Shown here in pieces: positions 3,748 through 21,271 of a stretch of 21,271 nt of DNA; positions within the stretch are counted from its first letter, which is position 1; each line of letters starts with the position of its first letter. The notes below the pieces were generated by a model, which was not told where the DNA came from, did not search any database, and saw only the letters and a list, made by a program, of their open reading frames with translations. A program made the translations under genes and the position numbers. The DNA comes from a virus, in the IMG/VR virus record IMGVR_UViG_3300038441_001139, positions 1-21,271 of that record. One strand, written 5' to 3'.

Positions 3748-6700
3748 CAGTAGGTACTCGCCGTGACGGTGACGGCGGTCGCGCCGTTGGTGCCGTTCGT
3801 GTTCGTCTGCTGGGTGCCGGTCCAGTCTGCCGTAGCCGTCCACGTCTTGGCGGTCGGGACGTTGGCCGAGAACGCGGCCAGTTCGAACGACGAGTTCTTG
3901 ACGAGGTTCATGCCACCGGGCAGGCGGCCGAAGTTGATCGCGGTCGCGTTGATCCCGTCGGGCGTGATCGCGGTCTGGGCCACGCCGTCGAGGTAGACCG
4001 TGATGCCCGCATCCGTGATCCGAACGTAGTCGGACGAGGACAGGTCGTCGGGCAGGCCGTCGGCCGTCTTGCCCACGTACAGGCCGGTGTCATTCCAGTA
4101 GCCGACCCGCTTCGTGCCCTGCCAGACCTCGATCCCATCAGCCCCATCCCCGATGGAGTTGACCTTGATCGTGCCCGCCGTGATCATCCCGGCGTCGATC
4201 TCACCGGTGGTCAGGAAGTTCGTGACCACCTCATCGAAGGCCATGTCCTCGGCCCCGACGAGGGTCGGGATGGCGCTCACCTGCGCCGACCAGCCCGCCT
4301 CCGGGTTGGCGAGGTAGTCGACCGGGGTGGCGACGGCGTCACTGGTGGCGACGTTGCCCGAGTAGTCGACAGCCCGGACTTGGAACCAGTACGCCGTGGG
4401 CGGATCGGCCACCGGCAAGTCGGTGATGACGACCGTGTTCACGCGTGCCCTGATGGCAGGCGGGGTCCATGTCGACGCAGTCGTGTCCGGGGCACCGGCC
4501 CCGTTGTCGGGGGCGTACCTGATCTCGTTGAACATGAGGTCGGCAGCGGTCGACGGGTCCCAGTTCAGGCCCACGGCCTTGAAGCCCGCGACGGCCGTCA
4601 GGCCCGACGGAACGGTTGGGGCGGTCGCGTCCTTGATCGTGACGGCGGTGACCGTGGCGGTGTACCCGCTGGTGTTGCCGCTGATGTCCCGCGAGTTGGC
4701 CCGCGCCCAGTACCGCTTGTTCCCTGCCACGCCACGAAGCACCGCCACGGTCGTTTCGGGACCGATGCTGACCACGGAGGCGTTGAGCCAGATCGGCGTC
4801 TCCAGCGCCGGATCAGGGTTGGGTGGCTCCGGCGTCTCGTAGGTGAACTGGACGCTGGTGCTGAACAGATCGGCGTCGGCCGGGTGGGTGATGGTCGCCC
4901 GCAGTTCGATGAGCGATGCCCCGGTCGCATCCTCGACCAGCGCGGAGGTCAGGCTGACGAGGGTCGGCACGGCGGGCGGTGTCGTATCCGATCCCGGTGG
5001 CGGGCCACCATCGATGGGCGGGCAGTAGACCTCGGCGTAGAGGCCGGTGTCCTCATCGACCTCATAGACGCAGCCGGTGTTCAGGTCCTCGTAGAACTGG
5101 GACGTGATCGGGTCCGTCGACAGCGGCAGGGTCAGTGGCGTGATCACCACGCTGCCGTCCACGAACGAGACGCCGCCCACCCCGAACGCCTCGGGCGTGT
5201 TGATCGGCGGCTCCCCGAACGTGACCGGCACGCCGTACCCGACCTGCCACTCCTTCGGCAGGCCCGGGTTGATCGACGGGATCAGGTCCGGGTCGGGCGG
5301 GGTCGAGGTCTTCTTGGGCATGACGGTCAACGTCATGTCCGTGTGCCCATCGGGGTAGTACCGCCACTCGACGCCGTAGATCGTCCAGTAGCCGCTGCTG
5401 CCGTACTGGAGCGTGTCGACCACGCCCCGCTCGATCCTGATCAGGATGTTGTCGCCGAGGTCCCAGCCGTCGAACGGCGTGAGCATGTCGGCCCGGATCG
5501 CGAGCGCCATCCGCTTGCCGATCTTCGACAGCACGTTGGCGTTCTCGTTCGCCCGGCGCTGGAGATCGTTCTGGTCGATGATGTCAGGGAAGAACGCGGT
5601 CTTGGCCCGGCGTCCCCACTGGCTCTCGACCAGCCCGCCCTTGCCCACCGCCCGGTAGACCTTGACCTCACCGCGCTTCTGCCCGACCGACAGCACCCGT
5701 GTCGCGAAGTCACCCAGCGCCACCACCCGGAAGTCGTTGAGCAGCCCGCCGTACTCCAGTTCGATGTTCGGCCGGTCCCTGCCCCAGTTGTCGACCAGCG
5801 TCCACTGCCACGCGCTGAAGTCGGCGTTGGTGGGCTTGGCGTAGAACCTCGCCTCGCGCCCCGTGCCCTGCTTGTGTGAGTCGATCAGGCCGGTGATGAA
5901 CGGCAGGCACTCGGCATACGTGCTGTAGATCGTGGCCCGTTCGGCGAGGGCGGTGATCGGACCACGGGTGATGAACCCGACCGGGCTGTCGGGCAGGTTC
6001 TTGTGGTAGTCGATCTGGTCCTTGATGATCCAGTCGAGGGTCTTGTCGATGTACTTGGACCCGCCACCGCCCGTGCCGGTCGCTGCCTTCTCGGCGTTGG
6101 CCGGGTCGTACCGCTCGTCCACCGCCGTCTGGAGCAGGCCGAGGTAGTCGGTGCCGTAGAACACGACGCTGTCCGTGTCGGCATCGAAGTCGGTGATGAT
6201 CCCCGCGAACTTGGTGGCGTAGCGGTCGCCGTAGAACTGCTCGACCGCGAAGTGGGTCTGGTGGGCCTCGATGTACGGGCAGTACGGGTGCAGTGCCGGG
6301 AGGCTGAAGTACACCTCGCCGCCACCGTTGAGGTAGGCGCTGGCCCCGAGGTCCATCGGGTCGTCCACGTACCCGATCAGCGCACCACGCCCGCGCAGGG
6401 TGCCCATCTTGTAGAGCGCGACGCGGACCGGCGCATTGCGGGCGATCTGGGTGGTGAGTTCCACGTCGCCGAGGTCGGGGTTGAAGTCGGCCGTCAGGGT
6501 GAACTCGATGTACGACCACGGCGACCACGATCCCCTGCTGTCCTGTGCCCTGATCCGGTAGGTGTAGGTCCCGGCGGTCAGGGGGCGGCCACCGTACGGC
6601 CGGGCGATCACGCCACTGGTGATCTCATCAGCGGAGGGGAGTACGACTCCGGTGTCCCACACCCGCGTTGACGAGTCCGCGAACGCTGCGTCCGTGTGCG

Positions 6701-7817
6701 CGCTCACCGGCTGCATCTGGAGTTCGAACTGGGCGAGCGGGTTCCCCTCCGGGTCGCTGTACGTTCCGCCGAAGTGCGCCTCCGACATCGCTGCCACTGG
6801 GGCCAGAGCGGTCGCGAGGACCGTCGGGGCCGAAGACGTGATCCGAAGGGCGCGGACTGCTGAGAACGGACCCCACAAACCGGCCGGGTCCTTCGTCTTG
6901 GCTCGCCATTCGTAGTCGGTCTGCAACTTCAGCGCAGCGGCTGCGAGCGAAAGCGGAACCGAGAAGCGCCCGGTCTGGGTTTCGTCCGAGCCTGCGGACT
7001 GGAGACTGGCTGGAAGAGTCCACGTCGCCACCTTCCCTACGTCGTCGGTCTGGTCCTTCAGCCACACCTCGATCAGCCGTGCGGCCATGGGGTCGAGGTC
7101 GGGGTCGGCGTGCTGCCCTTCGAACACGTCACCGAACGAGACATTCGTCGTGCCCGGGTTGAGCAGGGTCGGCGCGGTCGGTGCCCGGTTGACCGGGTCG
7201 TAGGTGATCAGGACGTACGGGCGGTTCCCGGCCGTGCCGTCATGGAACGAGCGGAAGATCGCGCGGTACGAGTTGACCGTCTGGTCGCCCGGCGACTTCA
7301 CGTAGAAGCCGTAGTTGGTGCCGCCCCCGCCGACCGTGTTGTCGACGTACTTCACCGACTTGGGCACGACCGGCTTGATCAAGTTCGTGATGTCAACGAA
7401 CAGCCACGCCTCGTCCTGCGGCATGCCCGTCGAGGGGTTGATCGCAAGCGACTTCTCGACCCCGCCCGTCGCGGACACGGCCTCGTAGTCACCGGCGGTC
7501 CAGACGTTCTCGCCGTTGGTCCCATCGGACCACCCCTCGGTGGCCCGCTCCACCCTGATCTTGGCCTTGGACCCCATCGAGAAGTGGGTCGAGTCGTCCT
7601 CGACCTTCATCGCGAGTTCGGCCTTGATCAGGCGGGCGACCCCGGTCCAGTTCCACGCCACCTGAAGGAGCGAGCGGTAATGCCGCTCGTCAGCACCGGC
7701 ACCGGTCGGGCCGACCAGCATGTGCCGGTCATCACCGCAGCCCTGCGGATCAGCCCCGTTGTTGTCCCGCCTGATCTGCTTCGCCTTGTTGGCGGCGAAC
7801 TGCCGCGTGACGGCCAT
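3747..7817 (-). CDS. Tail hub / minor tail protein, ReqiPepy6 Gp37-like with DNRLRE and FN3 modules
   Basis: This gene encodes 1356 residues. Residues 1-208 resemble a DNRLRE module (HYRSLLQVAWNWTG; ERATEGWSDGTNGENVW; YVLITYDP). Two FN3-like domains follow (about 209-330 from NRAPTAPTL, and 331-450). About 450-870 look like the siphovirus Gp37-like tail-hub region (GRGALIGYVDDP, ATKFAGIITDFDADTDSVVF, WDLGDNILIRIERG). A proline linker, two more FN3 domains (about 944-1060 and 1061-1165) and a C-terminal fibre-like part with EIDAGMITAGTIKV complete it. Such proteins form the tail tip that follows the distal tail protein, which is exactly its place here. The end is odd: NLVKNSSFE, the usual opening of a carbohydrate-binding module, occurs only about 50 residues before the stop. 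The ATG shares a base with the upstream stop (TGATG), and GAGG lies about 11 bases upstream. Confidence 0.85.
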   Translation of the reverse strand: MAVTRQFAANKAKQIRRDNNGADPQGCGDDRHMLVGPTGAGADERHYRSLLQVAWNWTGVARLIKAELAMKVEDDSTHFSMGSKAKIRVERATEGWSDGTNGENVWTAGDYEAVSATGGVEKSLAINPSTGMPQDEAWLFVDITNLIKPVVPKSVKYVDNTVGGGGTNYGFYVKSPGDQTVNSYRAIFRSFHDGTAGNRPYVLITYDPVNRAPTAPTLLNPGTTNVSFGDVFEGQHADPDLDPMAARLIEVWLKDQTDDVGKVATWTLPASLQSAGSDETQTGRFSVPLSLAAAALKLQTDYEWRAKTKDPAGLWGPFSAVRALRITSSAPTVLATALAPVAAMSEAHFGGTYSDPEGNPLAQFELQMQPVSAHTDAAFADSSTRVWDTGVVLPSADEITSGVIARPYGGRPLTAGTYTYRIRAQDSRGSWSPWSYIEFTLTADFNPDLGDVELTTQIARNAPVRVALYKMGTLRGRGALIGYVDDPMDLGASAYLNGGGEVYFSLPALHPYCPYIEAHQTHFAVEQFYGDRYATKFAGIITDFDADTDSVVFYGTDYLGLLQTAVDERYDPANAEKAATGTGGGGSKYIDKTLDWIIKDQIDYHKNLPDSPVGFITRGPITALAERATIYSTYAECLPFITGLIDSHKQGTGREARFYAKPTNADFSAWQWTLVDNWGRDRPNIELEYGGLLNDFRVVALGDFATRVLSVGQKRGEVKVYRAVGKGGLVESQWGRRAKTAFFPDIIDQNDLQRRANENANVLSKIGKRMALAIRADMLTPFDGWDLGDNILIRIERGVVDTLQYGSSGYWTIYGVEWRYYPDGHTDMTLTVMPKKTSTPPDPDLIPSINPGLPKEWQVGYGVPVTFGEPPINTPEAFGVGGVSFVDGSVVITPLTLPLSTDPITSQFYEDLNTGCVYEVDEDTGLYAEVYCPPIDGGPPPGSDTTPPAVPTLVSLTSALVEDATGASLIELRATITHPADADLFSTSVQFTYETPEPPNPDPALETPIWLNASVVSIGPETTVAVLRGVAGNKRYWARANSRDISGNTSGYTATVTAVTIKDATAPTVPSGLTAVAGFKAVGLNWDPSTAADLMFNEIRYAPDNGAGAPDTTASTWTPPAIRARVNTVVITDLPVADPPTAYWFQVRAVDYSGNVATSDAVATPVDYLANPEAGWSAQVSAIPTLVGAEDMAFDEVVTNFLTTGEIDAGMITAGTIKVNSIGDGADGIEVWQGTKRVGYWNDTGLYVGKTADGLPDDLSSSDYVRITDAGITVYLDGVAQTAITPDGINATAINFGRLPGGMNLVKNSSFELAAFSANVPTAKTWTATADWTGTQQTNTNGTNGATAVTVTASTY

Positions 7818-8818
7818 CAGGCGAACGCCTCACTCCAGAACAGCCGGGACCCGGCAGCCAGAGCAGCGCCCGTGCGCCAGTAGTGGAACGGTGTGCTGAA
7901 GGGACGGGACGGTGGGTTGATCGAGGCCGGGACCATCGGCTTCCGGTTCTTGGTCGCGAACGTGACAAGGTCCATGCGGAGGACGAGCGGGGCTGTGCCA
8001 GCCCCACCCGAGATGTCCTCCGTCATGAGGACACGGTCGTCGCCCATCCATCGGTACACCGTGTTGGCCTTGGCCTCGATCTTGATCTTCATGTCGATGC
8101 CGTTGAAGCCCGTGACCCGGAACTCCCCGACAGGCGGCACGGTCGCGCCGATCACCAGCATGATGTTGAGCGGCGTCTCGTAGTCCCCCCGGTTGATCGC
8201 CGCACCCGCCACGTTCGACGCACCTGCCGCGCCCGACACGTCCACGCTCTTGCTGGGGTCGATGTACACGCGGGGGTCCTTCGCCAGCAGGGTCACCGAC
8301 CACGGGATGGCGGTCGGCCGCGTGCCGTGGTTGTTCTTGCTGGTGTCCTGCCGGTCACGGTTGATCGCGAACGTGGGCGTGCGCTGCGGGCGCACGTTCA
8401 TGTACAGCGGGACGACGCCAGCCGGGATGTCAGCCCCACCGGGCACGCTGACGTACGGGAACGAGTCGAGGTCGAGGGTCGACTGCTGGTAGTGGAGCGG
8501 CAGGAAGCCCCGGTCACCCGGGCTGTCCTGATACGCGGAGGTCGGGCTGAACACCGACCGCAGCACGTGCAGGAAGTCGAACATCTCGGCGAGGCTGGTC
8601 GCGTAGATGTGGCCGCTCATCTGGATCGTGCGCCCGCCGAGATACACGTCCGAGGCGTGGACACCGTCACTGCCCGCGCGCTTCTCGGTGTAGCCCACCG
8701 CGTCCACGGCCGAGTAGTCGACCTGCTCGACCGCGATCCCGCGCAGGGTGCGGCCTGTCTCCAGCGTGGCCCCGTTCAACTCCAGCCCGCGATACGAGAT
8801 GGACTTGGAGATGTCCAT
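7817..8818 (-). CDS. Dit-like phage tail protein (distal tail component)
   Basis: This gene encodes 333 residues. The N-terminus has the pattern of Dit/phage-tail-family proteins: a first strand with LELNGATLETGRTLRGIAVE, then a DAVGYTEKRAGSDGVHASD loop and GRTIQMSGHIYATS. The last segment corresponds to the ring-forming strand pair of siphoviral Dit proteins. The centre carries PWSVTLLAKDPRVYID, which also recurs in that family, and the C-terminal half is a beta-rich domain. Dit forms the ring linking the tail to the hub, and the next gene is a hub protein, so context agrees. The ATG at 8818 follows the connector stop by 4 bases with GGTGA 6 bases upstream. Family assignment is by motif recall, without alignment. 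Confidence 0.7.
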   Translation of the reverse strand: MDISKSISYRGLELNGATLETGRTLRGIAVEQVDYSAVDAVGYTEKRAGSDGVHASDVYLGGRTIQMSGHIYATSLAEMFDFLHVLRSVFSPTSAYQDSPGDRGFLPLHYQQSTLDLDSFPYVSVPGGADIPAGVVPLYMNVRPQRTPTFAINRDRQDTSKNNHGTRPTAIPWSVTLLAKDPRVYIDPSKSVDVSGAAGASNVAGAAINRGDYETPLNIMLVIGATVPPVGEFRVTGFNGIDMKIKIEAKANTVYRWMGDDRVLMTEDISGGAGTAPLVLRMDLVTFATKNRKPMVPASINPPSRPFSTPFHYWRTGAALAAGSRLFWSEAFA

Positions 8819-8822
8819 CAGG

Positions 8823-9497
8823 TCACCAATACTTGCGGACGGTGCGGATCAGTCCTCGCTGGCGGTCCCAGTCCTGCTTGGAGTTCGCCGACATCTGCAT
8901 CATCTGGGTCGGCGACACGTCGCTGTTGTTGGTCTGGCCCTGCCACTGCGCGAACAGCGAGCGGTCATGGGCGAGCAGGTCGTACCCGGCGCTCCTCGCG
9001 TACGCCCGGACGGCGTACTCCTCCTCGGCCGAGAGCGGCAGGGTCGGCGACGGGCTGCCCTCGATGGTGTAGGGGATCGTCCGCAGCGCGTAGCCGTGGA
9101 GCCGGATGCCGTACTCGGAGGCGCGGAACTGGCGCAGGTACCAGACGGGGAACTCGATGGTCCCGCCACCGGCCGTCTTGCGGAAGTCGATCCCGCCACT
9201 GCCCTGCCAGCCGTCGATGGGTTCGCTGATGTTGAAGGCGTACCCGTCGGAGGCCCGCTTCACCTCGACCCGGTAGGGCAGTTCGATGGGCACGTCATAC
9301 ACGTTCTGGGTGATGTCGCCCGTCTCGGGATCGACCTCCAACGGGATGTCGTAGATCGTGTCCGATGGGCACACGCGGTTCAGTTCAACGATCCCACCAC
9401 GAACGAAGTCCTCGACCTGCACGGTCGAGAACACCTCCTGCGCCTCGTCGGCGAGGTCGCGATAGACACCCCCGACCAGTTCTTCCAGTGTCGCCAT
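8823..9497 (-). CDS. Putative head-tail connector / adaptor protein
   Basis: This gene encodes 224 residues. It begins with an acidic amphipathic helix (MATLEELVGGVYRDLADEA), has a beta-rich middle (YDVPIELPYRVEVKRASDG, FPVWYLRQF), and ends in a helical tail with AVRAYARSAGYDLLAHDRS and a basic C-terminus. Its place between major capsid and Dit-like genes, and a helix-sheet-helix layout, are what one expects of a connector or tail-terminator protein. I cannot name a family, so the role rests mostly on context. GAGGTGG lies 4 bases before the ATG and fixes the start. A 67-base gap containing a strong hairpin separates it from the capsid gene. Confidence 0.6.
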   Translation of the reverse strand: MATLEELVGGVYRDLADEAQEVFSTVQVEDFVRGGIVELNRVCPSDTIYDIPLEVDPETGDITQNVYDVPIELPYRVEVKRASDGYAFNISEPIDGWQGSGGIDFRKTAGGGTIEFPVWYLRQFRASEYGIRLHGYALRTIPYTIEGSPSPTLPLSAEEEYAVRAYARSAGYDLLAHDRSLFAQWQGQTNNSDVSPTQMMQMSANSKQDWDRQRGLIRTVRKYW

Positions 9498-9564: not shown

Positions 9565-10584
9565 TTACGGAACGATGGTGGCCTTGTAGGCCCGGGCACC
9601 CGTCGTGTTGGTCGCGGGACCCATGGCCGGGGAGCCGTCGAAGGCGGTGAGGGCGTAGCCCATCATGCCCTTCCAGCCCATGATGGCGCGCTGCGCGAGC
9701 GGGTCGGCATGATCGCCACCGCGTCCGACGCGGTACGCCTCGATGGTCGACCAGTCGCCCGCGACGTACGCCTCGGGGCCGAAGATGATGATCTGCGCCG
9801 GGGTGCTGGGCAGGCGGTTCGTCTCGATGAACCGGACGCCACGGAACGAGCCGATCTCGCCGTTGAGAAGGGCCGACGTATCGGCGTACTTCTTGGTGTC
9901 CGTCCAGCCGAGTTCACCGACCTGCGTCATCACCAACTGGCTCGTCTCCGGGGCGATAAAGGCGTGGTAGTAGCCGTCCGCGAAGGTCGGCACGTTCGCC
10001 CGCTTGGCCTTGGTGACGGCCTCCACGATGCCCTGCGCGTACCCGGTGGCAGCGATGGTCAGCGCGGGGGCGGTGAGGAGCAGCGTGCCGAGGGTCGTCT
10101 CGACGTAGTCGACCGCGTTCCACGCCAACTTCTCGCTGGCCTTGGCGTACAGGTCGAACGGCGAGAAAATCTCGGCCAGATCGGTGATCGCGGTGGTCTT
10201 GCCGACCTGCTTCCCCGTGAAGGAGAAGGTGTCGAACAGCATCTTCTCCGTCTCGGGCGGGACGCCTTCAAGGAGTTCGACGGCTGCCGTCAGGTCAGCG
10301 AAGCCCGTGTACACGAACGCGTTCGTGCCCGGGACGTGCGACGCCATCAGCGGCTGGTTGCCCGCCTGCGCGAACACGGCCTTGTTGCGGAGCGTGTCGA
10401 GCGTGTTGCGGACGACGAGGGCCGTGACGACCTTCGCGAAGTCGGCGTTCAGGCCACCGCCAGTGGCGAAGGCGGTGCCGGGGACGCCAGCACCAAGGGT
10501 GCCTGCGTTGGAGACGATGATCGGTTCGGTGCCAGCAGCGGTCTGGACAATACCGCCGCCTTGGTTCCCGCCGGTAAGCGGCAT
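9565..10584 (-). CDS. Major capsid protein, N4-gp56 family type
   Basis: This gene encodes 339 residues. After a Gly-rich N-terminus come a helix (VVTALVVRNTLDTLRNKAVF), a beta/extended section (FSFTGKQVGKTTAITDLAEI), a long helix that would follow the E-loop (KASEKLAWNAVDYVETTLG), and a C-terminal part with EIGSFRGVRFIETNRLP near residues 239-255 and ADPLAQRAIMGWK near residue 295. The last two match the conserved GxxxGVRFxET and DPLxQRAxxGWK patterns I associate with N4-gp56-family capsid proteins of HK97 fold. Position directly after a scaffold-like gene supports this. It makes the icosahedral shell. The ATG has AAGGGA 9 bases upstream. It is flanked by real intergenic gaps on both sides and followed by a strong hairpin, consistent with high separate expression. 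Confidence 0.8.
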   Translation of the reverse strand: MPLTGGNQGGGIVQTAAGTEPIIVSNAGTLGAGVPGTAFATGGGLNADFAKVVTALVVRNTLDTLRNKAVFAQAGNQPLMASHVPGTNAFVYTGFADLTAAVELLEGVPPETEKMLFDTFSFTGKQVGKTTAITDLAEIFSPFDLYAKASEKLAWNAVDYVETTLGTLLLTAPALTIAATGYAQGIVEAVTKAKRANVPTFADGYYHAFIAPETSQLVMTQVGELGWTDTKKYADTSALLNGEIGSFRGVRFIETNRLPSTPAQIIIFGPEAYVAGDWSTIEAYRVGRGGDHADPLAQRAIMGWKGMMGYALTAFDGSPAMGPATNTTGARAYKATIVP

Positions 10585-10602: not shown

Positions 10603-11184
10603 CTAGAAGGTGCCCTCCTTCATCGCCTCCTGCACGGCCGGAGCCAGTCGCCGGAGGTCGCCGAGGAGTTCATCCTTGGACTTCTCGTTGAGCGGCTTCT
10701 GGCTGTTCAGACCACCGGGGATGCCGGGGCTGCGCCGTGGAGCCGCGTTCGGATCGATGATCGGGTGGCTCCCGGGCTGCGCTGGTGCCCCGCTTTCGGC
10801 CCACGCCTCGATGGCGGCGACCTTCTCGGGTGGCAGGTTGGCGATGGAGTCACCGAGAATGCCTGCGGCCATCGGGTACTGGGCTTGGAGTTGGGCTGAC
10901 GCGCGGGCAACCCGTTCCTGCTGGAGGTTCTGCTCCAGTTCCCTGATCCGTGCCGCCTCGGGGGACTCACCGACAGGCGCTGGAGCGGGCTGGGCCTTCA
11001 GCGCCTCGATCTGCGCATGAAGGGCGGCCGTCTCCGCGTTGTGGGCCTTGTCCTTGCCGCTAGAGCGGTTCCTCCAGAAGGCTTCGACCTCTTCGACGGT
11101 CTGAGCGCCGCTCGACTCGACGGGCTGCTCGCCCGTGGTGCCTGCGTCGTCAGCCGTGGCGTCGGTCTGGCGTTCCTCGGTCAC
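10603..11184 (-). CDS. Scaffold-like protein
   Basis: This gene encodes 193 residues and lies directly before the capsid gene. The N-terminal 35 residues are acidic and Thr/Ala-rich, probably disordered. Then come WRNRSSGKDK and a heptad-like helical region (about 45-100, AALHAQIEALKAQ and RIRELEQNLQQERVARASAQ). A Pro/Ala-rich stretch (PGSHPIIDPNAAPRRSPGIP) follows, then a charged helical end (SKDELLGDLRRLAPAVQEAM). An acidic, coiled-coil protein with a basic-containing C-terminal helix immediately upstream of the capsid gene is the usual signature of phage scaffolding proteins, which nucleate procapsid assembly and then leave. The start is GTG, chosen because GAGGAG sits 6 bases upstream. 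No protease motif is visible in it. Confidence 0.75.
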   Translation of the reverse strand: MTEERQTDATADDAGTTGEQPVESSGAQTVEEVEAFWRNRSSGKDKAHNAETAALHAQIEALKAQPAPAPVGESPEAARIRELEQNLQQERVARASAQLQAQYPMAAGILGDSIANLPPEKVAAIEAWAESGAPAQPGSHPIIDPNAAPRRSPGIPGGLNSQKPLNEKSKDELLGDLRRLAPAVQEAMKEGTF

Positions 11185-11234: not shown

Positions 11235-14200
11235 TCACGGTTGCGGGGGCTGCGGAAGTTGCTGCTGTAACTGGGTCGCCGCTTCGGTCAGCCGCTCCTC
11301 CACCGGGACGGCCCCGCCCGGTCCCAGCGAGAGCGCCTGTGGCGTGAGCGCGTTCTCCTCGTCGCCGCCAAGGAACGGTGCCCGGGTGGCCTTCGCCATG
11401 TCATCGATCCAGTCGAACCCGGCCTTGGGACCGAAGGCGTAGGACACGATCTCGCTGCCCGTCTTCGCGATGTTGAACTCCTTCGGCTTGCCCTGCTTCG
11501 TCAGCGGCTCGTCAATCGTCTCCGCGCCGTACTCGGCCACGCGCCGGGACCACAGTGGGAAGTTGGCGGGCGCGTCCCACGGAGACGCGGGCAGGAACAT
11601 CATGAAGTTGCGGAAGACCTTGTCGTTCTTCGGGTCGTTGACGTTGGCGTTGAACTCGGGATCGCTGTCCTTCTGGAGTTCGATGGCGTTCTGGACCCGG
11701 TTGGCGTTGACGAACCCGTAGAACGGCGAGCCGTGCAGGCCGTACTCGACGCCGTTGATCTTCACCGGCTTGGTCAGGAACGGGACCGGCAGGCCGAACG
11801 GGTTGACCGACAGCGCGCGGACCATCTCGGGCGCGACCTTGCCCCACATGTACGAGGCCGGGTACATGCCCATGTACGGGTGGTTGACCGACCGCTCCAG
11901 CCACGACCGGTTGCGCCGGAACTGGACGTTGGTGAAGGCCGCGTCCTCCGCGTCGACCACGGACTGGATGCCCGCCGCGTGCATCATCTCGTCGGTCGCG
12001 TCGAACGGGACGGCGTTCGCCAGCGCCTCGCGCTCGCGCTGGATCGGCATCGTGAGGTCGTTGAACAACTGCTCCAACTCGGGGCTGACCTTGGCCTTGG
12101 GGTTGGCCTTGGCCCATTCGAAGATGCGGATCAGGACCTTGCGGAAGTAGGCGAACGCGTCCCGCATCTTGGGGTTCTTCGCCTCACCGGTCGCCAGCCA
12201 CTTCCCGAACTCGTCCGCAAAGTGTTCGCTCGTCTCCCGGTCCCAGCCGAACTTCCGGGCCTCGGGCATGCGGGTCGCGACCTCGTCGTACTCCTTGCGG
12301 ATAGCCGCACCCTCGGCCTTGCGCGCCGCAAGTTCGGTCTGCGATACCCGAAGGTGTTCTGACAGGGCCACATGGAGTTCTGACGCAGACACATGCGCCG
12401 ACCGGGCAGGCTCGACGGCGGCCGTGGCTTCATCGCGTGACTTGATCAGCGCGTCCAGTTTCTCCTGCTCGCGGGTCAGCGCGCCCTCGACTGCGTCGAG
12501 GCCCCGCTGACGCTCCGACGGGTACTTCCGGGCGTTCGCCGCCTTGCGCTTGGCGGGCGCGTCCTTCCGCAACTGCTTCAGCGCGCCCTGCTGCATCGTG
12601 ACCCGGTCGGTCAGGTCAGCCGCCTTGGCCTCGGCCTGCCGCAGTGTCGTGGCCGCAACATCGAGGTCGCTCTTGGCAACCTTGGTCGCGGTCTGTGCCT
12701 CGATGACCACGTTCTCCCGGTCGGCGACGACGTTGGTGATCTCGTCCAACTGCGTCCGCAGCTCACCCGTCCGGGTGATCAGCGTGGCGTTGCGCTCATC
12801 GATCACCCGGTTGAGGTCTTCGAACACGACCCGCTTCATCGACGGGTCGGTCACCAGCGGCTCGATCACGGCGTGGGTGATCTCATGGAGGAACGTCGAC
12901 CGGTTCCGGTACTGCGTCAGGCCGATGATCTTGTCGCCCGTGTCGGTCATGATCGTCGCGCCACGGATCACCCGGCCATCCTGCTGGGCCATGATCGTGT
13001 TGACCGGGTCGAGGACCGAGTAGCCCGCCTCCTCGACCGACGGCTGGCCCTCGTTCTTGTAGAACCCGGCAAGGTTGTGACCGTCATCGGACGATGCGTA
13101 GTACCGAATGTCGCGCCTCGGCATGGCGTGGCTCGATGCGAATGCCGTCGTCTCCGGGTCCCAGATGTGGCGGCGCTCGTCCCACAACTTCCACTGGTAG
13201 CCGCCGTTGCCGTGGCGCTTCAGGCCCTCGGCCTCGGGTCCGGGGATCGCCTCGGCCTCGGCCTTGCGCCGCGACATGGTGTTCTCAAAGACCTCGTAGT
13301 CCCCGCCGAACATCTTCAGGTCGCGGTCGTAGAGGTCGGCCCACTCCTCGTCGGTGCGGTACATCCGCTCCATCCGGTCACGCTGCATGGTCGTGATGCC
13401 CGGCTTGCTCTCATCGGCGACAGCCTCGTCCAGCCTGCGCCGCACCCACGCGGCCTTCTCGGCCACCGTCCCAGCATCGAGCGCAGCACGCTGGCCCTCA
13501 CCGGGCACGAACTTGATGTCCACGCCCTGCGCCTCGGCCCACTTGAACACGCCCGCACCACGCGGGGCACCAGTGCCGATCCACTTCTGGATCAGCGCCT
13601 GCTTCTCGGCACTGAGGGTGGCGAGCCAGTTCCGCCACTCGGCGTTCTTCCCCTTCGCGCCCTTGGTGTAGTACATCCACTCGGTCAGGTCACCGACCAT
13701 GTGCAGGTCGTGGACGCCCTTGGGGAAGTTCAGCGGGTCACCGAGATCAGCCCCGAAGAACCCGGTCTTCAGGCTCAGACCGTTGGTGCGATGGCTGATC
13801 CGCTCACCGAACTCGTCCAGCGGCTCCAAGGCCGACTCGACCGTGTCGAGGACCGGGTGCCACGTTCCGTCGGCGGCCATGATCTCCACGTCCCCGGCAT
13901 GGACAGCGCCCTTGGCCCGCAGGTTCTGCGATGCATCCACGCCGCTCACGGCCTCGTCCCACGACATCTTGTCCTGACGCACGCGCAGGACGACCGAGTT
14001 CTCGTTCTCGGCGTAGATCGTGGCCGGATGCCGGGCGACGTACTCGCCGACCTTCCAGTTGGAACCGGCCCGCTGCTGCGGCGCGACCCGGTAGACGAAG
14101 CCCTCCTCGGACTGGAACTTCTCGGGGATGGTGGCGTTGCCCCGGGCATCGGTCCCGAAGCGCGCGGGCTGGAACGGCGTCAGGTCCTCGGTCGCCCCGG

Positions 14201-17200
14201 CCGGGGCGAACTGGGTCCCGCGCCGACGGACGAAGAAGTCCGGGTTGGCGAGCATGTCCTGCGCCATCAGGAGCGAGCGACCCATGTTCGCGTTGGTGGC
14301 GGTCGAGCGCCACGCCACGTCATCGTTCTTCAGGTACGCGAACGTGTCCTGATCGCCATGGAACATCCCCGCCCCGTCGATGTTCTTGCCCGCCGGGAGG
14401 CCAGCCCCGTTCACGTTCCACGGCTTGAAGATGATGTCTCCGTCGTGGCCCTTCCAGCGGGTGGCGTAGGGCGCGATGACCGCACGCGCGGCAGCGTCCA
14501 TCGGGTCCTCGGCCAACTTCGCGGCTGCCTCCAGCAGCGCAGGCCGGTCGGCCTCCTTGATCAGCGCAGCCCGCTTCACCCTAAAGATCGGGTCCATCGT
14601 GTCCAGTGCGTCGATGCCGCCCTTCTCGATGGTGTCCGCGATCTGCTCGATGGCCCAGTTGTGAAGCGGCCCCGTCGACCCGTGCTGGGCAACGTACTCG
14701 CTGCCCGCCTCCTCCATCTGGGTGTACCGGGCACGCTGTTCCTTCGTGGTCCCACGCAGGTACATGCTGGCGACCGTGGCCCGCTCCTCGACCAGCGACT
14801 GGGTGGACGCGATGGTCTTGCCGTCAGGTCCAACCCGCTCCGGCAGCATGTTCGCGCCCATGTGGCGCAGCCGGTCATCGAGCGGGATGTAATGGCTGAT
14901 GCCGGGCTGGGTCGAGTAGGCGAGGCCCATCTCGTTGACCGTCGCCTTGCGCCCGACAGCCCGCTCGATGGTGTTCCGAAGGGCCGTGGCGTCAGCGACC
15001 AGCGACTCCAGTTCGGCCCGGTTCGCTACCCGGAACCGGGTCGCGACCATCTCGTTCCGGGTCAGCGTCATCTGGGCCGAGTGGAGCGCCATGTTGTAGT
15101 TGTTGAACAGGCGGGCGACGGCGTCGGGATCGGTCGACTCCATGTCGATGGTGTGGCCGCGCCACATCTTCTCGTCCAGCGCGTGCTTCAGCGCCGGGTC
15201 CTTCAGGTCGACCGGGTTCAGCACCTGTGACCGGAGGACGTGCGCCTCCCATGCCGTCCACGGCGTCTCCAGATCGCGCAGCGCCGCCTCGCCACCGGGC
15301 ACCCACATCGTGCGACCGCCCTCGCCGAACTGGACCTTCTGCATGTCCGCGATGTTGCCGTGCTGCTCGACCGGGATGCTGGCCGGTGGGTTCATGGCCG
15401 CGCTCAGGAACTCGTCGTCGGCCACCTCGACGGCCACCTGATCCACACTGACCGCGCCGTCCTCGGCCACCCGGTAGTAGTTGACCAGCCGCTTGTTCTG
15501 CTGGAGCAGGGTGCCCCACGCAGCGAGGTCAGCCTCGGTCGCGCTGATCAGGTCGTCGTGCATCAGGCTGACCGGGCTGGACTGCATCGTGCGCGACAGC
15601 AGTTCCGTCTCGCTGATGCCCTGCGTATCGGCCAGCGCCTGCACGATCTTGCGCACGGCGGTGACCTCGGGCTTGCCTCCGGCCACCAGCGGGACGGCGT
15701 CATCCCACCACTGGTCGACCCCGCCCGTCTTCACTTCGAACTGGGTGGCCTTCCACGTCCGCTCGATGTAGTCCTGATGGGCACCCAGTTCACGCATCGT
15801 GTCCACGAACTCGTCGCGACTGAGCGCGCCGGTCGTGACCCGATGGTTGATCGCCTCACGGCTGGTGTTGAACGCGACCCGTGCGTTCTCCTCCAAGTTC
15901 ACCGCCGCTCGCGCACCCATGGCCGGTTCCTTGGCCGCGTCCATCAGGTGGTAGGCGACCCGGGGATCGGCGTTCGCCCACTTGTCCTTCTCGACCAGCC
16001 AACGGACGGCGATCTGTCCCTGATCCGTGGTGCCGAAGGTCTTCTCCAGATCGAGCCAGATGTTCGGGTTGATCTGGTCGAACTGGTCCTTCAGCATCGG
16101 GCCGAGGAAGTACCGGAACATCTCGGACTGGGCAGCCGCCTTGCGCTCATGGACGTTCAGGACCGAGACGTTGTGGATCGCCTGCCGGAGCATGTTCCGG
16201 TCGACAGCGGCGGCGGCCTGCTTCGCGGCCTTCGCGCCACTGAGGTAGACCAGCGACCGCTCCATCATGTCGAACTGGGCCTCGGGCGACGACGCCTTGT
16301 ACCGCTCCATCAGGTGCTGCTGGATCATCTGCACGTCGTCCAGCGTCACCGTCTCGCCGGTGATCGGGTTCTTCCACTGGCCGGTCAGCCGGGCCTGCCG
16401 TCCGCGCGCTGCGCTGAACACCCACGGCTCGACCCACTCCTGCATCTGGAACACGGGGTTGATCGAGAACCGGACGAGCGGGTACATCCGCTCAGCCACG
16501 ATGCCGAGGAAGTTCGACGGCATGAGCGGGATGTTGGCGAGTTCGGTCTTGGCCTTGCCCGACAACTTCTGGGTCAGGCCGACCGTGCCCACGTTGCCTT
16601 CGAACGACTGGAGCGTGAGCATCTGGAGGTCGTGCCCGGAGAGGCCAACCCGGGACGCGGCCTTGTTCGCGGCGATGACCCGGTCGAACTCACCGATCAT
16701 CAGGCCACGGGGCGCGGCTCCCGTCTCCAGTGCCTGCCGCTTCACGGCGTCGTACAGGTCGCGGGCCTCGTTGACCGTCAGGCCCTGCCCGCCCTCGTCC
16801 ACCGGCTTCGCACCACGGGTCATCGCGCCTTCCACGAACCGGCGGCGTGACTCGCGGTCGATCTTGTCCGACGTGATCTGCTGGCCCATCAGCCGGGTCT
16901 TGCGCTCCAGCGTGTTCGCCATGGACTTGATGCGGTTGCGGTCCATCGGGTCACGGAAGCGCAGGTTCCACGTCTCGGCCCGGTCCCCAGTGATGTCGAC
17001 CCACGGCCGGGCATGCTTGATGTCACCGGCCCTGATCCCGTTCTCCAGATCGTCCTCGGCGTGGGTGACGATCCGCCACTCGTCCTCGCCCTCGGGGCGC
17101 AGGCCGTAGACATACCCGTCACCGCGCTGCGCATCGGCGACGATCTCGCCCGGCAGCCGCCTCAGCGCCTCGTCATCGAGTTCCTTGGTCAGGCTGCCTT

Positions 17201-19265
17201 CGAACTCATCGAGCCACGACTTGACGCCCGCCAGCAGGACGGCCTCGTCGGTCCCGTCAGCAAGGAACTCGACGGCGAGGATGTCGTACTGGCGAACGGC
17301 GGTGCGGACAGCCTCGATGTCCCCGGTGTTCAGCGCGTCGCGCAGGTTCTTGGCGCGGAGGTCGGTGAGTTCCCGTGGCCCGATGAGCGTGGTCCGATCA
17401 ACGGTGTCCATGCGCGCGGCCTGCGCCTTGGTGGGCAGCCCGTCGGCGTTGTTGGCGATCTGGGAGTTCAGCGTCTCCCGGGCAGCCCGCTTCGCTGCGT
17501 TGTGGGTCTTGATCCGGTTGCCGAAGTACATCGCGTCGACCAGCGAGTACGCGTCCTCGTTGCCTCCCAGCCGCCGCAGCACCGCATCGGCCTGATCCCC
17601 GGACAGGCCCAGCCGGGTGAGGCGGTCCTTGGCGTGTGTGTGCGCCCGGGCCAGCGCCTCCTCCTTCGTGCCACCGGTCAGGATGGCGAGGTCGGCCTTG
17701 CGGCGGCCGATCCACCTCTCCATCTTCATGGCGTAGTTCTGCGCCCCGACCCCGGCACGGGCCTGAGCGACCTTGGTCGGCCGGGCGTCGGACAGGCGGC
17801 GTGTGGCGATCACGTCATCGGCGAGGCTGTCCCCCGCCATGAGCAGCCCCTCCTGCGCGCCGAAGTAGCCCATGCCCTCATCGAACAGGTCGCCCTTACC
17901 GACCACGTCGAGCGCATCCCCGAGCCGGGAGTAGTTCTCGATCCCGTAGCCCTGCGCGATGCCCTTCGTCCCCTCGCGCGACAGGTACGCGTTGGTGATC
18001 GGCTTCGACCCACGCCGCCCGATCAGGTTCGTCGGGTCGAGGATGCCCTGCGTGAAGTCGGCGATCTTCTCCAGCCGGGCGAACCCGGGGTGGAGCGCAG
18101 CCTGCTGGCGGGCCGGGAGCGCCTTCGTTGCACGGGCGAGGACATCGGAGTGCGCGCCCGTCCGAATGGCCTCTTCCATGATCTGGTACGGCGTGACGGC
18201 AGCCTCGGAGATGGCCGCCCCGCCCTCGGCAACCGACCGCTCCGCGACCTGCCGGGTCAGCGCCCGGACCCCCGTCTCGCCCAGTTCGTCCACGAACCGG
18301 ACAGCCCGTGCAGCACCGGCTCCCTTCGACGCCAGTCCAATGGCTGTGCCCGCGCCGAACGCGAGGTTGGCCGGGTCGAGAACGGCCGAGCCGAGCAGGT
18401 TGACGACCCAGTTGTTGGAGTAGCCCGCGCCGTTGACGACCAGTTCATCGAGGAACCGGTCCTCCTTGATCTCGCCCGCCTTGAAGCGTTCGCGCAGCGC
18501 GATGACCTCGGGATTGAGGTCTTCCTCTGGTGCGTTCATCACCCGGTCGATGGCCGCACCGGGACCACCGGCGTAGCCGCGCTGGATGAGGTCGCTGGGG
18601 AGGCCGAAGATGCCCAGCGTGTTCATCAACTGCTCGCCCGCGTTGGTGGACGGGCCGAGCGACCGGAGGATCGGGCTGATCCCGCCCTCCTCGATCTGCT
18701 TGGCCCAGTCCTCCTTATCGTGTTCGCCCAGTGCCTTCATCAGGCCAAACGGGTTGCCCTGCCACTCCTTGAAGAACGCACTGCGCTCCTCGTCCGTGGC
18801 CCGAAGGAGCGAGGCCCCGGGCACGCCACCACCGCCCGGCAGGAACGGCAGCGCAGGCATGTTGCCCAGCACCCCACCGACCGCGTCGAGGCCCACCTGC
18901 GGGATGTGCCCGATCCCTCGCCCGATGTTGGCTCCCAAGTCGGCCTGCCCGAACATGCCGCCCACGACCCGGCCAGCGCCCGCGCCGAACCCCTCCACGA
19001 ACCCGCCTGCGCTGGGCAAGTTAGCGGCGAACGCGCCCGGCCGGGTGAGGTTCAGCGTCTGCTTGCCGATGTCCTTGTACGGCCGGTCGGGGTTCGTGGT
19101 CGAGGCGTACCGCTGGGCGAAGTCGGAGTTGACCTTCAGCACCGGACCACGGGCGACCTGCGGCGCGGCCGTGAACGACGACTGCATGGCGGGCATCGCC
19201 TGCCTGCCCCAGTCACCGAGTCCCATCGGCGGCTGCACACCCCCTGATCGTGTCAGGGGCGGCAC
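11235..19265 (-). CDS. Giant polyvalent-type virion protein with HExxH metallopeptidase motif and coiled coil
   Basis: The frame is uninterrupted for 2676 codons, about 38% of the window. Residues about 60-150 are Gly/Ala-rich and weakly hydrophobic (FGAGAGRVVGGMFG). LDPANL (near 298) and LDPTNL (near 408) repeat a motif. Around 914-955 an aromatic segment (AERMYPLVRFSINPVFQMQE) resembles membrane/LPD-type segments of large phage proteins. Near the end, DKIIGLTQYRNRSTFLHEIT leads into HExxH (H2127, E2128, H2131). A charged coiled coil (about 2145-2340) follows, then SEHFADEFGKWL with E2347 as a possible third zinc ligand. The C-terminal part has HPYMGMYPASYMWGKV (about 2462). Large polyvalent proteins with one peptidase domain occur in phages and conjugative elements and may be injected. 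The start could instead be ATG 19226 (codon 14). No RNA-polymerase or lysozyme motif was found. Family and function remain uncertain. Confidence 0.8.
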   Translation of the reverse strand: MPPLTRSGGVQPPMGLGDWGRQAMPAMQSSFTAAPQVARGPVLKVNSDFAQRYASTTNPDRPYKDIGKQTLNLTRPGAFAANLPSAGGFVEGFGAGAGRVVGGMFGQADLGANIGRGIGHIPQVGLDAVGGVLGNMPALPFLPGGGGVPGASLLRATDEERSAFFKEWQGNPFGLMKALGEHDKEDWAKQIEEGGISPILRSLGPSTNAGEQLMNTLGIFGLPSDLIQRGYAGGPGAAIDRVMNAPEEDLNPEVIALRERFKAGEIKEDRFLDELVVNGAGYSNNWVVNLLGSAVLDPANLAFGAGTAIGLASKGAGAARAVRFVDELGETGVRALTRQVAERSVAEGGAAISEAAVTPYQIMEEAIRTGAHSDVLARATKALPARQQAALHPGFARLEKIADFTQGILDPTNLIGRRGSKPITNAYLSREGTKGIAQGYGIENYSRLGDALDVVGKGDLFDEGMGYFGAQEGLLMAGDSLADDVIATRRLSDARPTKVAQARAGVGAQNYAMKMERWIGRRKADLAILTGGTKEEALARAHTHAKDRLTRLGLSGDQADAVLRRLGGNEDAYSLVDAMYFGNRIKTHNAAKRAARETLNSQIANNADGLPTKAQAARMDTVDRTTLIGPRELTDLRAKNLRDALNTGDIEAVRTAVRQYDILAVEFLADGTDEAVLLAGVKSWLDEFEGSLTKELDDEALRRLPGEIVADAQRGDGYVYGLRPEGEDEWRIVTHAEDDLENGIRAGDIKHARPWVDITGDRAETWNLRFRDPMDRNRIKSMANTLERKTRLMGQQITSDKIDRESRRRFVEGAMTRGAKPVDEGGQGLTVNEARDLYDAVKRQALETGAAPRGLMIGEFDRVIAANKAASRVGLSGHDLQMLTLQSFEGNVGTVGLTQKLSGKAKTELANIPLMPSNFLGIVAERMYPLVRFSINPVFQMQEWVEPWVFSAARGRQARLTGQWKNPITGETVTLDDVQMIQQHLMERYKASSPEAQFDMMERSLVYLSGAKAAKQAAAAVDRNMLRQAIHNVSVLNVHERKAAAQSEMFRYFLGPMLKDQFDQINPNIWLDLEKTFGTTDQGQIAVRWLVEKDKWANADPRVAYHLMDAAKEPAMGARAAVNLEENARVAFNTSREAINHRVTTGALSRDEFVDTMRELGAHQDYIERTWKATQFEVKTGGVDQWWDDAVPLVAGGKPEVTAVRKIVQALADTQGISETELLSRTMQSSPVSLMHDDLISATEADLAAWGTLLQQNKRLVNYYRVAEDGAVSVDQVAVEVADDEFLSAAMNPPASIPVEQHGNIADMQKVQFGEGGRTMWVPGGEAALRDLETPWTAWEAHVLRSQVLNPVDLKDPALKHALDEKMWRGHTIDMESTDPDAVARLFNNYNMALHSAQMTLTRNEMVATRFRVANRAELESLVADATALRNTIERAVGRKATVNEMGLAYSTQPGISHYIPLDDRLRHMGANMLPERVGPDGKTIASTQSLVEERATVASMYLRGTTKEQRARYTQMEEAGSEYVAQHGSTGPLHNWAIEQIADTIEKGGIDALDTMDPIFRVKRAALIKEADRPALLEAAAKLAEDPMDAAARAVIAPYATRWKGHDGDIIFKPWNVNGAGLPAGKNIDGAGMFHGDQDTFAYLKNDDVAWRSTATNANMGRSLLMAQDMLANPDFFVRRRGTQFAPAGATEDLTPFQPARFGTDARGNATIPEKFQSEEGFVYRVAPQQRAGSNWKVGEYVARHPATIYAENENSVVLRVRQDKMSWDEAVSGVDASQNLRAKGAVHAGDVEIMAADGTWHPVLDTVESALEPLDEFGERISHRTNGLSLKTGFFGADLGDPLNFPKGVHDLHMVGDLTEWMYYTKGAKGKNAEWRNWLATLSAEKQALIQKWIGTGAPRGAGVFKWAEAQGVDIKFVPGEGQRAALDAGTVAEKAAWVRRRLDEAVADESKPGITTMQRDRMERMYRTDEEWADLYDRDLKMFGGDYEVFENTMSRRKAEAEAIPGPEAEGLKRHGNGGYQWKLWDERRHIWDPETTAFASSHAMPRRDIRYYASSDDGHNLAGFYKNEGQPSVEEAGYSVLDPVNTIMAQQDGRVIRGATIMTDTGDKIIGLTQYRNRSTFLHEITHAVIEPLVTDPSMKRVVFEDLNRVIDERNATLITRTGELRTQLDEITNVVADRENVVIEAQTATKVAKSDLDVAATTLRQAEAKAADLTDRVTMQQGALKQLRKDAPAKRKAANARKYPSERQRGLDAVEGALTREQEKLDALIKSRDEATAAVEPARSAHVSASELHVALSEHLRVSQTELAARKAEGAAIRKEYDEVATRMPEARKFGWDRETSEHFADEFGKWLATGEAKNPKMRDAFAYFRKVLIRIFEWAKANPKAKVSPELEQLFNDLTMPIQREREALANAVPFDATDEMMHAAGIQSVVDAEDAAFTNVQFRRNRSWLERSVNHPYMGMYPASYMWGKVAPEMVRALSVNPFGLPVPFLTKPVKINGVEYGLHGSPFYGFVNANRVQNAIELQKDSDPEFNANVNDPKNDKVFRNFMMFLPASPWDAPANFPLWSRRVAEYGAETIDEPLTKQGKPKEFNIAKTGSEIVSYAFGPKAGFDWIDDMAKATRAPFLGGDEENALTPQALSLGPGGAVPVEERLTEAATQLQQQLPQPPQP
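19241..19259 (-). promoter_or_regulatory. 7-bp hairpin at the 5' end of the giant gene
   Basis: CCCCTGA (19241-19247) and TCAGGGG (19253-19259) pair perfectly across a 5-base loop. The hairpin lies 5 bases downstream of the first base-triplet of the proposed GTG start (19265) and 14 bases upstream of the alternative ATG (19226). If the ATG is used, the hairpin is in the leader and covers the only G-rich tract (AGGGGG) that could serve as ribosome binding site, so it could modulate initiation. Confidence 0.45.
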
Positions 19266-21271
19266 CTACCGCCCGCCCTTGTTGAACACGACGCTTTCAC
19301 GCTTCGGCAGCGGTGCCGAAGCCTTCGGGACGGTGAAGCCGGTATACGGGTTCACCTCCCTGTCCTCATCCGGCTGCCTCGGCTTCGGGGCAGGCCGTGG
19401 CGCGACGGGCTTCGGCGGGCCTTGCATCGGACGAGGCGCAGGCGGCGCGTACCCACCGTACGGCTTCGCGCCCGGGGTCTGGCCGGGCTTCGGCATGAAC
19501 GGGTTCTGGCCGGGCTTGGTGACCGTGACCGGCTGTGCGCCGGGGATGAGCGGCCACTGCTGGGTCGCTCCACCCGCGTAGGAGAACGGCGTGCCGACCG
19601 CACCCTTGCTGATCCGGTAGGCGAGGTCGTTGGCGGCCGTGAGGCTCATGCCCGGCTGCGACAGCAGGTCACCCGCCGACCAGCCCTTCGGCAACTGGGA
19701 CGGCTTGGCGACGGTCTGGCCCGGGATGTAGTTCGCGCCCATCATCCCACTGGTCGCGTACATGCCCGGAATCTTCTGCTGCTCCTTGCTGACGCCCCAG
19801 TCGCCCAACTTGGCGACGAGGTCGTCGCGAGCGGCGGTTTCGGCCGACACCAGACCCTGACGGCGGAACTCGGCCAGCGACAGGCCCTGCCGGGTCGCGG
19901 CCTCCGTCTCGGCGCGCAACTTCAGCGCGGCGCGGGTGTTGCTCTGCTGCTCCGGGGTGTACCCGTAGTTGAGGTTGAACTGGATCGTGTTCACCAACTG
20001 GGTCGACTGGCGGTCGACCACGGCAGCAGCGGCATCCTCCGGCCGTACCCCGCCCGCGATGGCCGTGCCGTAGTCCTGCCGCATGGAGGCCGTCCACTTC
20101 TTGGGATCGGAGTACCACTCCGTCTCGGCCTTCTTCACGGCGTCGGCCCCGACCTCGGTGGCGACGTACTTCATGTGTTCCGATGACGAGTTCGCCAGTG
20201 CGGCGATGGGCGAGGAGAACGCCGTCTGCTTGTCGTTGGCGTAGTTCCAGTTCGCCTTGGTGTCGGGCGAGGTCAGGGCAGCCGAGTTCACGTAGTCCTG
20301 CGGGTTGTAACCCAACTTCGGTGCGCCCGCTGCCTTCGGACCACTGACCGGCTGCTGCCTCGCCGAGTACGTGTACACGACCGAGCCGTCGGCATCGATG
20401 GTCCGGGCCGGGGCACCCTCCGTGCCGATCCCGACCAGTGGGTTGATGGTCGACCAGACCAGCGCCCCGTTCTGGTAGGTGCCGTAGACGGTGATCGTCT
20501 GCCCGCCGGGTCCGGTGATGTCGACCTGCTTGCCGATGGTTTCGTCCATCCCCTCCCATGGCTTCACGGCACCCGTGAACGCACCCGTGGCCTGATCCTG
20601 ATACGCGGTCTGGCGCACCTTCAGCGCCGTCGCGACCGTGTAGCGGACCTCGCCCTCGCGCCCGCCCATCGTGTACTTGCCGTCGCTGGAGGTGTACGTC
20701 CCGTGCGCCGACACGGGCACCGGGATCAGGTCGTCGTTGCCCGCCACCTCGGGCGCGTCCCGGGCGAACGCCGTCCAGTTGTTGCCCTTGGGGTCGGGCA
20801 CTTGGTTCTTGCCCGTGCCCGACGTTCGGACCACGATGGCGTTCCCGTTGGCGATGTTGTCCATGATGAACCGGTTGTCGGCCGCAGCCTCGGACAGCGT
20901 GGCCGCATCGCTGGACTCGCCTGCCTCCTGCGTGCCCTGCGCGAGCAGGTCATCCTTCAGCGTCTGGCCCGCGCCCTTCTCACCACGGAGCGCGGCGAGC
21001 GTGCCCTCGATCCGGCCGTAGATGCCGGTCGCCGTGGGGTTGAAGTTGTTCGACCTCGGGTCCAGCGAGCCTGCGGGCAGCGTGCGCGCGAGGATCGGCG
21101 CACCGGTGTTCGTCAGCCAGTCCTGATACTGCTGGATCGCCGTCGCCTTCTCCATCGGCGAGGACCCGCTGTCGTCGGCGAGCGTGGCGTCCAGCAGCGC
21201 ACGGTAATGCTCGTTCTGCTCCACGAACGACGCCTCGCCCGGCTTGCCCAGCGTGACGGCGATGATCGTGG
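19266..21271 (-). CDS. Unrecognised large phage protein with Pro-rich C-terminus, 5' end outside window
   Basis: The frame is open to the right edge, giving 667 residues and a TAG stop. A GTG at 21224 could be read as a start, but the preceding codons (TIIAVTLGKPGEASF) continue the same character and no ribosome binding site precedes it, so I treat the gene as truncated. Residues after that GTG: a helical start (HYRALLDATLADD), a beta-rich middle (KQVDITGPGGQTITVYGTYQ), helical stretches (EQQSNTRAALKLRAETEAAT), and a proline-rich tail of roughly 80 residues (KPYGGYAPPAPRPMQGPPKP). It touches the giant gene directly (TAG then GTG), so the two are likely co-translated and may act together. Possible roles are portal-proximal or ejected virion protein. 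No family is recognised. Confidence 0.7.
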   Translation of the reverse strand, partial: TIIAVTLGKPGEASFVEQNEHYRALLDATLADDSGSSPMEKATAIQQYQDWLTNTGAPILARTLPAGSLDPRSNNFNPTATGIYGRIEGTLAALRGEKGAGQTLKDDLLAQGTQEAGESSDAATLSEAAADNRFIMDNIANGNAIVVRTSGTGKNQVPDPKGNNWTAFARDAPEVAGNDDLIPVPVSAHGTYTSSDGKYTMGGREGEVRYTVATALKVRQTAYQDQATGAFTGAVKPWEGMDETIGKQVDITGPGGQTITVYGTYQNGALVWSTINPLVGIGTEGAPARTIDADGSVVYTYSARQQPVSGPKAAGAPKLGYNPQDYVNSAALTSPDTKANWNYANDKQTAFSSPIAALANSSSEHMKYVATEVGADAVKKAETEWYSDPKKWTASMRQDYGTAIAGGVRPEDAAAAVVDRQSTQLVNTIQFNLNYGYTPEQQSNTRAALKLRAETEAATRQGLSLAEFRRQGLVSAETAARDDLVAKLGDWGVSKEQQKIPGMYATSGMMGANYIPGQTVAKPSQLPKGWSAGDLLSQPGMSLTAANDLAYRISKGAVGTPFSYAGGATQQWPLIPGAQPVTVTKPGQNPFMPKPGQTPGAKPYGGYAPPAPRPMQGPPKPVAPRPAPKPRQPDEDREVNPYTGFTVPKASAPLPKRESVVFNKGGR

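Follow-up and report, generated by a model that had tools for sequence, protein, structure and literature searches.

A giant cysteine-free protein encoded between the portal and scaffold genes: a candidate ejection protein with exchangeable modules in a probable podovirus-type phage lineage

We interpret a 2,676-residue protein encoded in the head-gene block of an IMG/VR virus as a giant protein that a podovirus-type phage ejects on infection, built as a conserved chassis with a swappable payload, and assign this sequence-based reading a probability of about 0.64. A first-pass annotation of the same DNA had called the protein polyvalent-type and offered two choices, a packaged and injected multifunctional protein or a giant structural one. 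Packaging and injection remain the best-supported reading, favored by a zincin signature, an acetyltransferase domain in a relative, a swapped cassette, the lack of cysteine and the gene position, but membership in the polyvalent class was not borne out.

The giant gene and its phage lineage

The window analyzed here is the whole of IMG/VR record IMGVR_UViG_3300038441_001139, a stretch of 21,271 bases. Its genes are given below in their order of transcription.

19266..21269, minus strand: preceding protein, C-terminal 667 aa, no cysteine, 5' end outside the window; proposed ejection partner
11235..19265, minus strand: giant protein, 2,676 aa, zero cysteine
10603..11184, minus strand: scaffold-like protein, 193 aa (lies ahead of the capsid gene, is helical and charged in composition, and recurs in relatives)
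9565..10584, minus strand: major capsid protein, MCP (phrog_1357, E 1.8e-25; Pfam Phage_capsid_4)
8823..9497, minus strand: 224-aa protein, possible head-tail adaptor by position only (kept in all relatives covering the region)
7817..8818, minus strand: Dit-like distal tail protein (PF05709, 3.5e-6)
3747..7817, minus strand: 1,356-aa tail protein (phrog_32822, 1.5e-9; resembles minor tail proteins from Streptomyces phages)
1003..3843, minus strand: tail or fibre protein, about 915-946 aa (weak fn3 match)

The coordinates (11235-19265) and length first reported for the giant are correct, and the strand, which had been omitted, is minus; its share of the window, given earlier as about 38%, measures 37.8%. 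As also described, the gene lies upstream of scaffold and capsid, the next genes on the minus strand being the scaffold-like ORF (10603-11184) and then the MCP gene (9565-10584). The frame opens with a GTG at 19265, directly adjoining the stop of the preceding gene, and continues for 2,676 codons to 11235 with no internal stop. Because GC3 is uniform along its length (0.88-0.92 in each 1,500-base slice, like the neighbor genes) and the frame is kept in a full-length relative of 72% identity, we regard it as a real gene. The 667-aa fragment shares 25-28% identity with the 884- and 892-aa proteins found at the equivalent place in relatives. At the far end of the window, the 946-aa tail ORF overlaps its neighbor by 97 bases (3747-3843), and an ATG near 3750 (MPTTNFPV) is its likelier start.

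The earlier statement that most of the giant belongs to no nameable family agrees with our searches: the whole protein and its domains, compared with Pfam, PHROGs, NCBIfam and PDB sequences, gave no significant match beyond coiled-coil noise, with weak matches falling almost entirely within the coiled-coil stretch at about residues 2150-2335. Tape measures and virion RNA polymerases, the families that the first-pass annotation had set against its own proposal, were searched for, and neither matched the giant. The tblastn search of the giant against 50,697 phage records returned zero matches, and equivalent searches with P0001, P0002, a distant giant, and the portal and TerL of relative G011 were uninformative. 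Relatives of the lineage's terminase, portal and giant thus went undetected in these 50,697 deposited phage genomes, the exception being a distant capsid/tail-protein similarity, and two scans of genome contigs found zero prophage relatives; as a first guess, the hosts would be soil bacteria of high GC content. The phage lineage carrying the giant is apparently undescribed.

Scans of IMG/VR, performed with the giant protein first and then with capsid and conserved-region alignments, added about 30 further contigs. The giants of this family measure 1,665-3,119 aa, and their identity to the window giant falls from 73% to about 19%. Gene order is constant across about ten genomes: TerS, TerL, portal, a protein of 806-997 aa, giant, scaffold, MCP, (adaptor), Dit-like and tail proteins. 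In the relatives, TerL matches phrog_2 (6e-11) and the portal marginally matches phrog_64. In four members, portal sequences share 68-77% identity, whereas the giants of the same members are far more diverged.

One relative, G020 (IMGVR_UViG_3300018481_000010; loci L049-L051; 48,759 bp), looks like a complete, circularly permuted genome, because it has a terminal direct repeat of 123 bp and its giant gene (2,835 aa) spans both contig ends. It also encodes Prim-Pol, AAA ATPase and vWA-type genes. An adaptor-like gene alone lies between its capsid and Dit genes. Its head-tail block contains no recognized tail-tube or tape-measure gene, a picture shared by about nine partial genomes; from this gene content, we infer a short-tailed particle as the natural reading. 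Two distant relatives, G029 (L096 8849-13123) and G032 (L090 1149-2495), have extra unidentified genes between capsid and Dit/adaptor, unlike the window, and their tail type could differ. In G017 (IMGVR_UViG_3300035148_000172), a lone in-frame TAG breaks the giant at codon 1274 (L052 near 6396), which may reflect an error in sequencing, a gene that is genuinely split or readthrough of the stop codon.

Domain anatomy and exchange of modules

Throughout the family, a core and a C-terminal anchor recur, and the middle between them is variable. The corresponding regions of the window giant are as follows.

15531..18668, minus strand: conserved N-terminal/central core, residues 200-1245 (alignment A5; the core search retrieves 22 loci)
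13851..14168, minus strand: exchangeable cassette, residues 1700-1805
12873..12887, minus strand: HEITH at residues 2127-2131, putative zincin motif for zinc binding and catalysis (HExxH in all long relatives)
12261..12848, minus strand: coiled-coil-like insert between the zincin motifs, residues 2140-2335 (missing from L066, L068 and G028)
12198..12227, minus strand: EHFADEFGKW, residues 2347-2356, with E2347 the proposed third zinc ligand (conserved E, matching context)
11526..11939, minus strand: C-terminal anchor region with NHPYMGMYPASYMWGKVAPEM, residues 2443-2580 (kept also in members without HExxH)

HEITH, previously singled out near the C-terminus, is present once, at residues 2127-2131 of 2676, and the long members reaching this region likewise have exactly one HExxH each (HEITH, HEIVH, HELMH, HELAH, HELVH and others). 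Downstream lies a conserved glutamate with surroundings that resemble SEWFADxF or SEHFADEF, retained even at low overall identity. These motifs were compared by direct inspection, the automatic alignment A3 having set the distant clade's HExxH in the wrong place. The spacing between HExxH and the glutamate is 35-45 residues in L066, L068, G028 and G011, and 220 in the window giant. At the motif level, HExxH with a later glutamate is the signature of a putative zincin whose two zinc-binding helices are separated by an insert, and inserts at this place have been described for polyvalent-protein peptidases (PMC5512222). Four members of 1,665-1,850 aa (G025, G029, G033 and G035) lack HExxH and have both core and anchor. 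The anchor motif reads NHPxxGxYPxSY(M/Y)xGK(V/I)xPxM across the family, with NHQ in G017.

The variable middle includes an exchange site near residue 1682, at which L002, G017 and G018 have no insert. A cassette domain of ~106 aa is common to the window giant, L004 and G020 only; in L003, an unrelated insert of ~210 aa replaces it, and L004 additionally carries a GNAT acetyltransferase (PF00583, 3.8e-8, above threshold). Between the window and G020, the cassette is 62% identical as against 29-32% in the adjoining stretches, and its presence is uncoupled from the relatedness of the members; together, these two observations point to horizontal exchange of the cassette. Profile searches with the cassette gave zero family matches, and an ADP-ribosyltransferase assignment, suggested by a by-eye resemblance that the searches left unconfirmed, was dropped. 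Candidate effector-type domains within a single chain are a putative zincin and the unmatched cassette in the window giant, and a putative zincin and GNAT in L004. GNAT-like acetyl-CoA loop motifs (GRKGIGNWMY, QRGKGIANWMY) occur near residue 1460 of the L012 giant (P0002) and near 231 of the partial giant of L055; they hint that the distant clade has acetyltransferase modules as well; Pfam gave no match for the G011 stretch.

Cysteine depletion of the giant and its neighbor

None of the 2,676 residues of the window giant is a cysteine, and the fragment of the preceding protein in the window has none either. In the family sample, the giants hold 5 cysteines in 49,101 residues, as against ~332 expected from the rate in other genes of eight family genomes (399 in 59,019 residues, 0.68%), a contrast to be read as counts, since the sequences are related and a pooled P-value carries no meaning. 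The structural proteins of the window phage are also cysteine-poor (0.35%); set against these genes, the giant would be expected to have 9.5 cysteines (P0 8e-5). L035, which nearly duplicates the C-terminus of G018 and has one cysteine, was left out of the count as redundant. The values for L032, L033 and L035 refer to mechanically chosen longest open stretches, those of L033 and L032 being at least partly non-giant. Because the absence recurs although most positions have been substituted among members, it indicates selection against cysteine. The fast-evolving preceding protein of ~900 aa (806-997 aa where complete) has 4 cysteines in 7,956 residues over the window, L028, L049, L054, L052 and L092, and is probably a second ejection protein.

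Among control ejection proteins, zero cysteines were found in N4 gp50, gp51 and gp52, in the LIT1 vRNAP, gp72 and gp73, in T7 gp15 and gp16, and in P22 gp7, gp16 and gp20. T7 gp14 and gp6.7 have one each, and crAss001 gp47, gp49 and gp50 have 1-3 in 1,349-2,412 residues; in these phages, ordinary counts are seen for portals, terminases and outer tail proteins. Zero cysteines also occur in three giants from Microbacterium phages, namely Akoni gp31, ArMaWen gp31 and Burro gp27, each of about 4,490 aa and with pairwise identity under 30% (PMC7302621). For N4-like vRNAPs, both the absence of cysteine and its channel rationale are already in print, in a passage of PMC3915230 citing Kazmierczak et al. 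The tape measures lambda gpH and P1 Sit also have none, and the injected P1 DarB has nine. The absence of cysteine thus fits passage through a narrow channel, yet is neither a unique nor a universal mark of it.

Proposed ejection and the competing explanations

From the anatomy, conservation, module exchange, cysteine avoidance and gene position described above, we infer a scheme for packaging, ejection, zinc binding, proteolysis and target. The core and anchor would direct the giant to a site inside the head close to the portal; at infection, the protein would enter the host as a thread, by way of the portal and short tail and either before the DNA or together with it, and its ~900-aa neighbor would be ejected too, perhaps as part of the channel. 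Such threading would account for the selection against cysteine. The zincin could free payload domains by cutting the giant, or could cut host or cell-wall targets, and the cassette and GNAT domains would be payload acting on the host. In support, portal genes on one side and scaffold/capsid genes on the other consistently flank those of the giant and the preceding protein, and core and anchor persist where the zincin is absent. Counting against ejection, cysteine is absent from tape measures also, and hydropathy predicts no membrane segments in the window giant (borderline ones in G017, G018 and G020), such segments being usual in T7/P22 gp14- and gp16-type proteins (PMC8954989). A more specific proposal, which we advance tentatively and at less than even odds, is that the family represents an undescribed delivery chassis, in which the conserved core and anchor package and eject whatever lies between them, with zincin, GNAT and other cassettes exchanged at a defined site. 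Equally speculative is its corollary that cysteine avoidance may be a sequence-only mark of channel passage, to which this family, the Microbacterium giants and N4-like phages would have come separately.

Several known systems share part of this profile. In its proposed mode of action, the giant would be a counterpart of the Microbacterium giants and of N4 vRNAP minus the polymerase. The ejected N4 vRNAP, gp50 (Schitoviridae; 3,500 aa), is likewise a cysteine-free giant with a C-terminal HExxH domain (C1, PMC12633501), encoded in the virion block of a short-tailed phage with cysteine-free partner proteins; it differs in gene position and in its polymerase motifs, shows no significant similarity to the giant, and has no counterpart of the exchangeable cassettes, and homology was rejected at the sequence level. 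The giants of Microbacterium podophages (cluster EK and Burro) are also cysteine-free, adjoin the portal gene and have unnamed domains, and Burro gp27 was judged virion-associated, a virion band of ~250 kDa, below the full protein size, being ascribed to it (PMC7302621). Unlike the giant described here, they measure about 4,490 aa, lack HExxH and are encoded before the portal rather than after it; homology, being undetectable, was again rejected at the sequence level. T7 gp14-gp16 and P22 gp7/gp16/gp20 are cysteine-free or nearly so and encoded in the head-tail block, and ejection proteins of this type belong to short-tailed phages and swap modules between homologues (PMC8954989). The giant is much larger, has no recognized peptidoglycan hydrolase or membrane segments, and belongs to a set of two candidate proteins only. 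In Bcep22-like podophages, the DarB-like giant JC1 gp69 (4,515 aa) was detected in virions by mass spectrometry with 51 unique peptides (PMC9144972); it has helicase/methylase-type domains, unlike ours, and the likeness drawn here is one of description. Polyvalent proteins (Iyer et al. 2017, PMC5512222) share a zincin-like signature with a variable insert, the GNAT seen in relatives and a portal-terminase phage setting. Nevertheless, none of the curated polyvalent domain models (LPD, MPTase-PolyVal, PBECR and others) matched the giant family sequences searched, and the giant is cysteine-free, unlike P1 DarB; the protein resembles this class but, lacking a model match, is not filed there.

Among the alternatives, a giant internal structural protein, of the inner core or portal vertex, that is retained in the particle and uses its zincin for assembly-time processing only would suit a gene directly before scaffold and capsid, in phages whose other structural proteins are also cysteine-poor. 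We consider it unlikely: lengths of 1,665-3,119 aa, fast evolution and exchanged enzyme-type modules fit a fixed part poorly, the giants are far more diverged than the portal (68-77% identical in four members), and their cysteine depletion far exceeds that of portal or tail proteins. An HExxH protease signature beside the scaffold gene might also mark a non-virion morphogenesis factor, such as a protease or chaperone for head assembly, but this very improbable explanation leaves the cysteine avoidance unaccounted for, and an essential assembly protease is unlikely because several members have no HExxH.

That the giant is a tape measure from a phage with a long tail, encoded by a gene relocated upstream of the capsid gene, is improbable, even though it is large, has zero cysteines like lambda gpH and P1 Sit, and accompanies a Dit-like protein. 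Between capsid and Dit, G020 has the adaptor-like gene alone and no recognized tail-tube or tail-terminator genes; the giant is not placed between tail-tube and Dit genes, none of the PHROGs tape-measure profiles reached significance against it, hydrophobic segments are absent from the window giant, and length varies almost twofold through gain and loss of enzyme modules. Hardly credible is an N4-type virion RNA polymerase or its remnant. Size, zero cysteine and an HExxH in the C-terminal third recall N4 gp50, and the best profile alignment to N4 pairs both HExxH motifs, but this alignment is non-significant (probability 3%) and leaves the remainder of the giant unaligned, single-subunit polymerase motifs are unconserved, and there is no PHROG match.

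What giant genes do in actinobacterial podophages has been described as unclear (PMC7302621). Should the giant indeed be an ejected chassis with a payload, cysteine count together with gene position would nominate ejected proteins across dark phage genomes, the family would separate the delivery vehicle from its cargo parts, and the delivery function would become directly testable.
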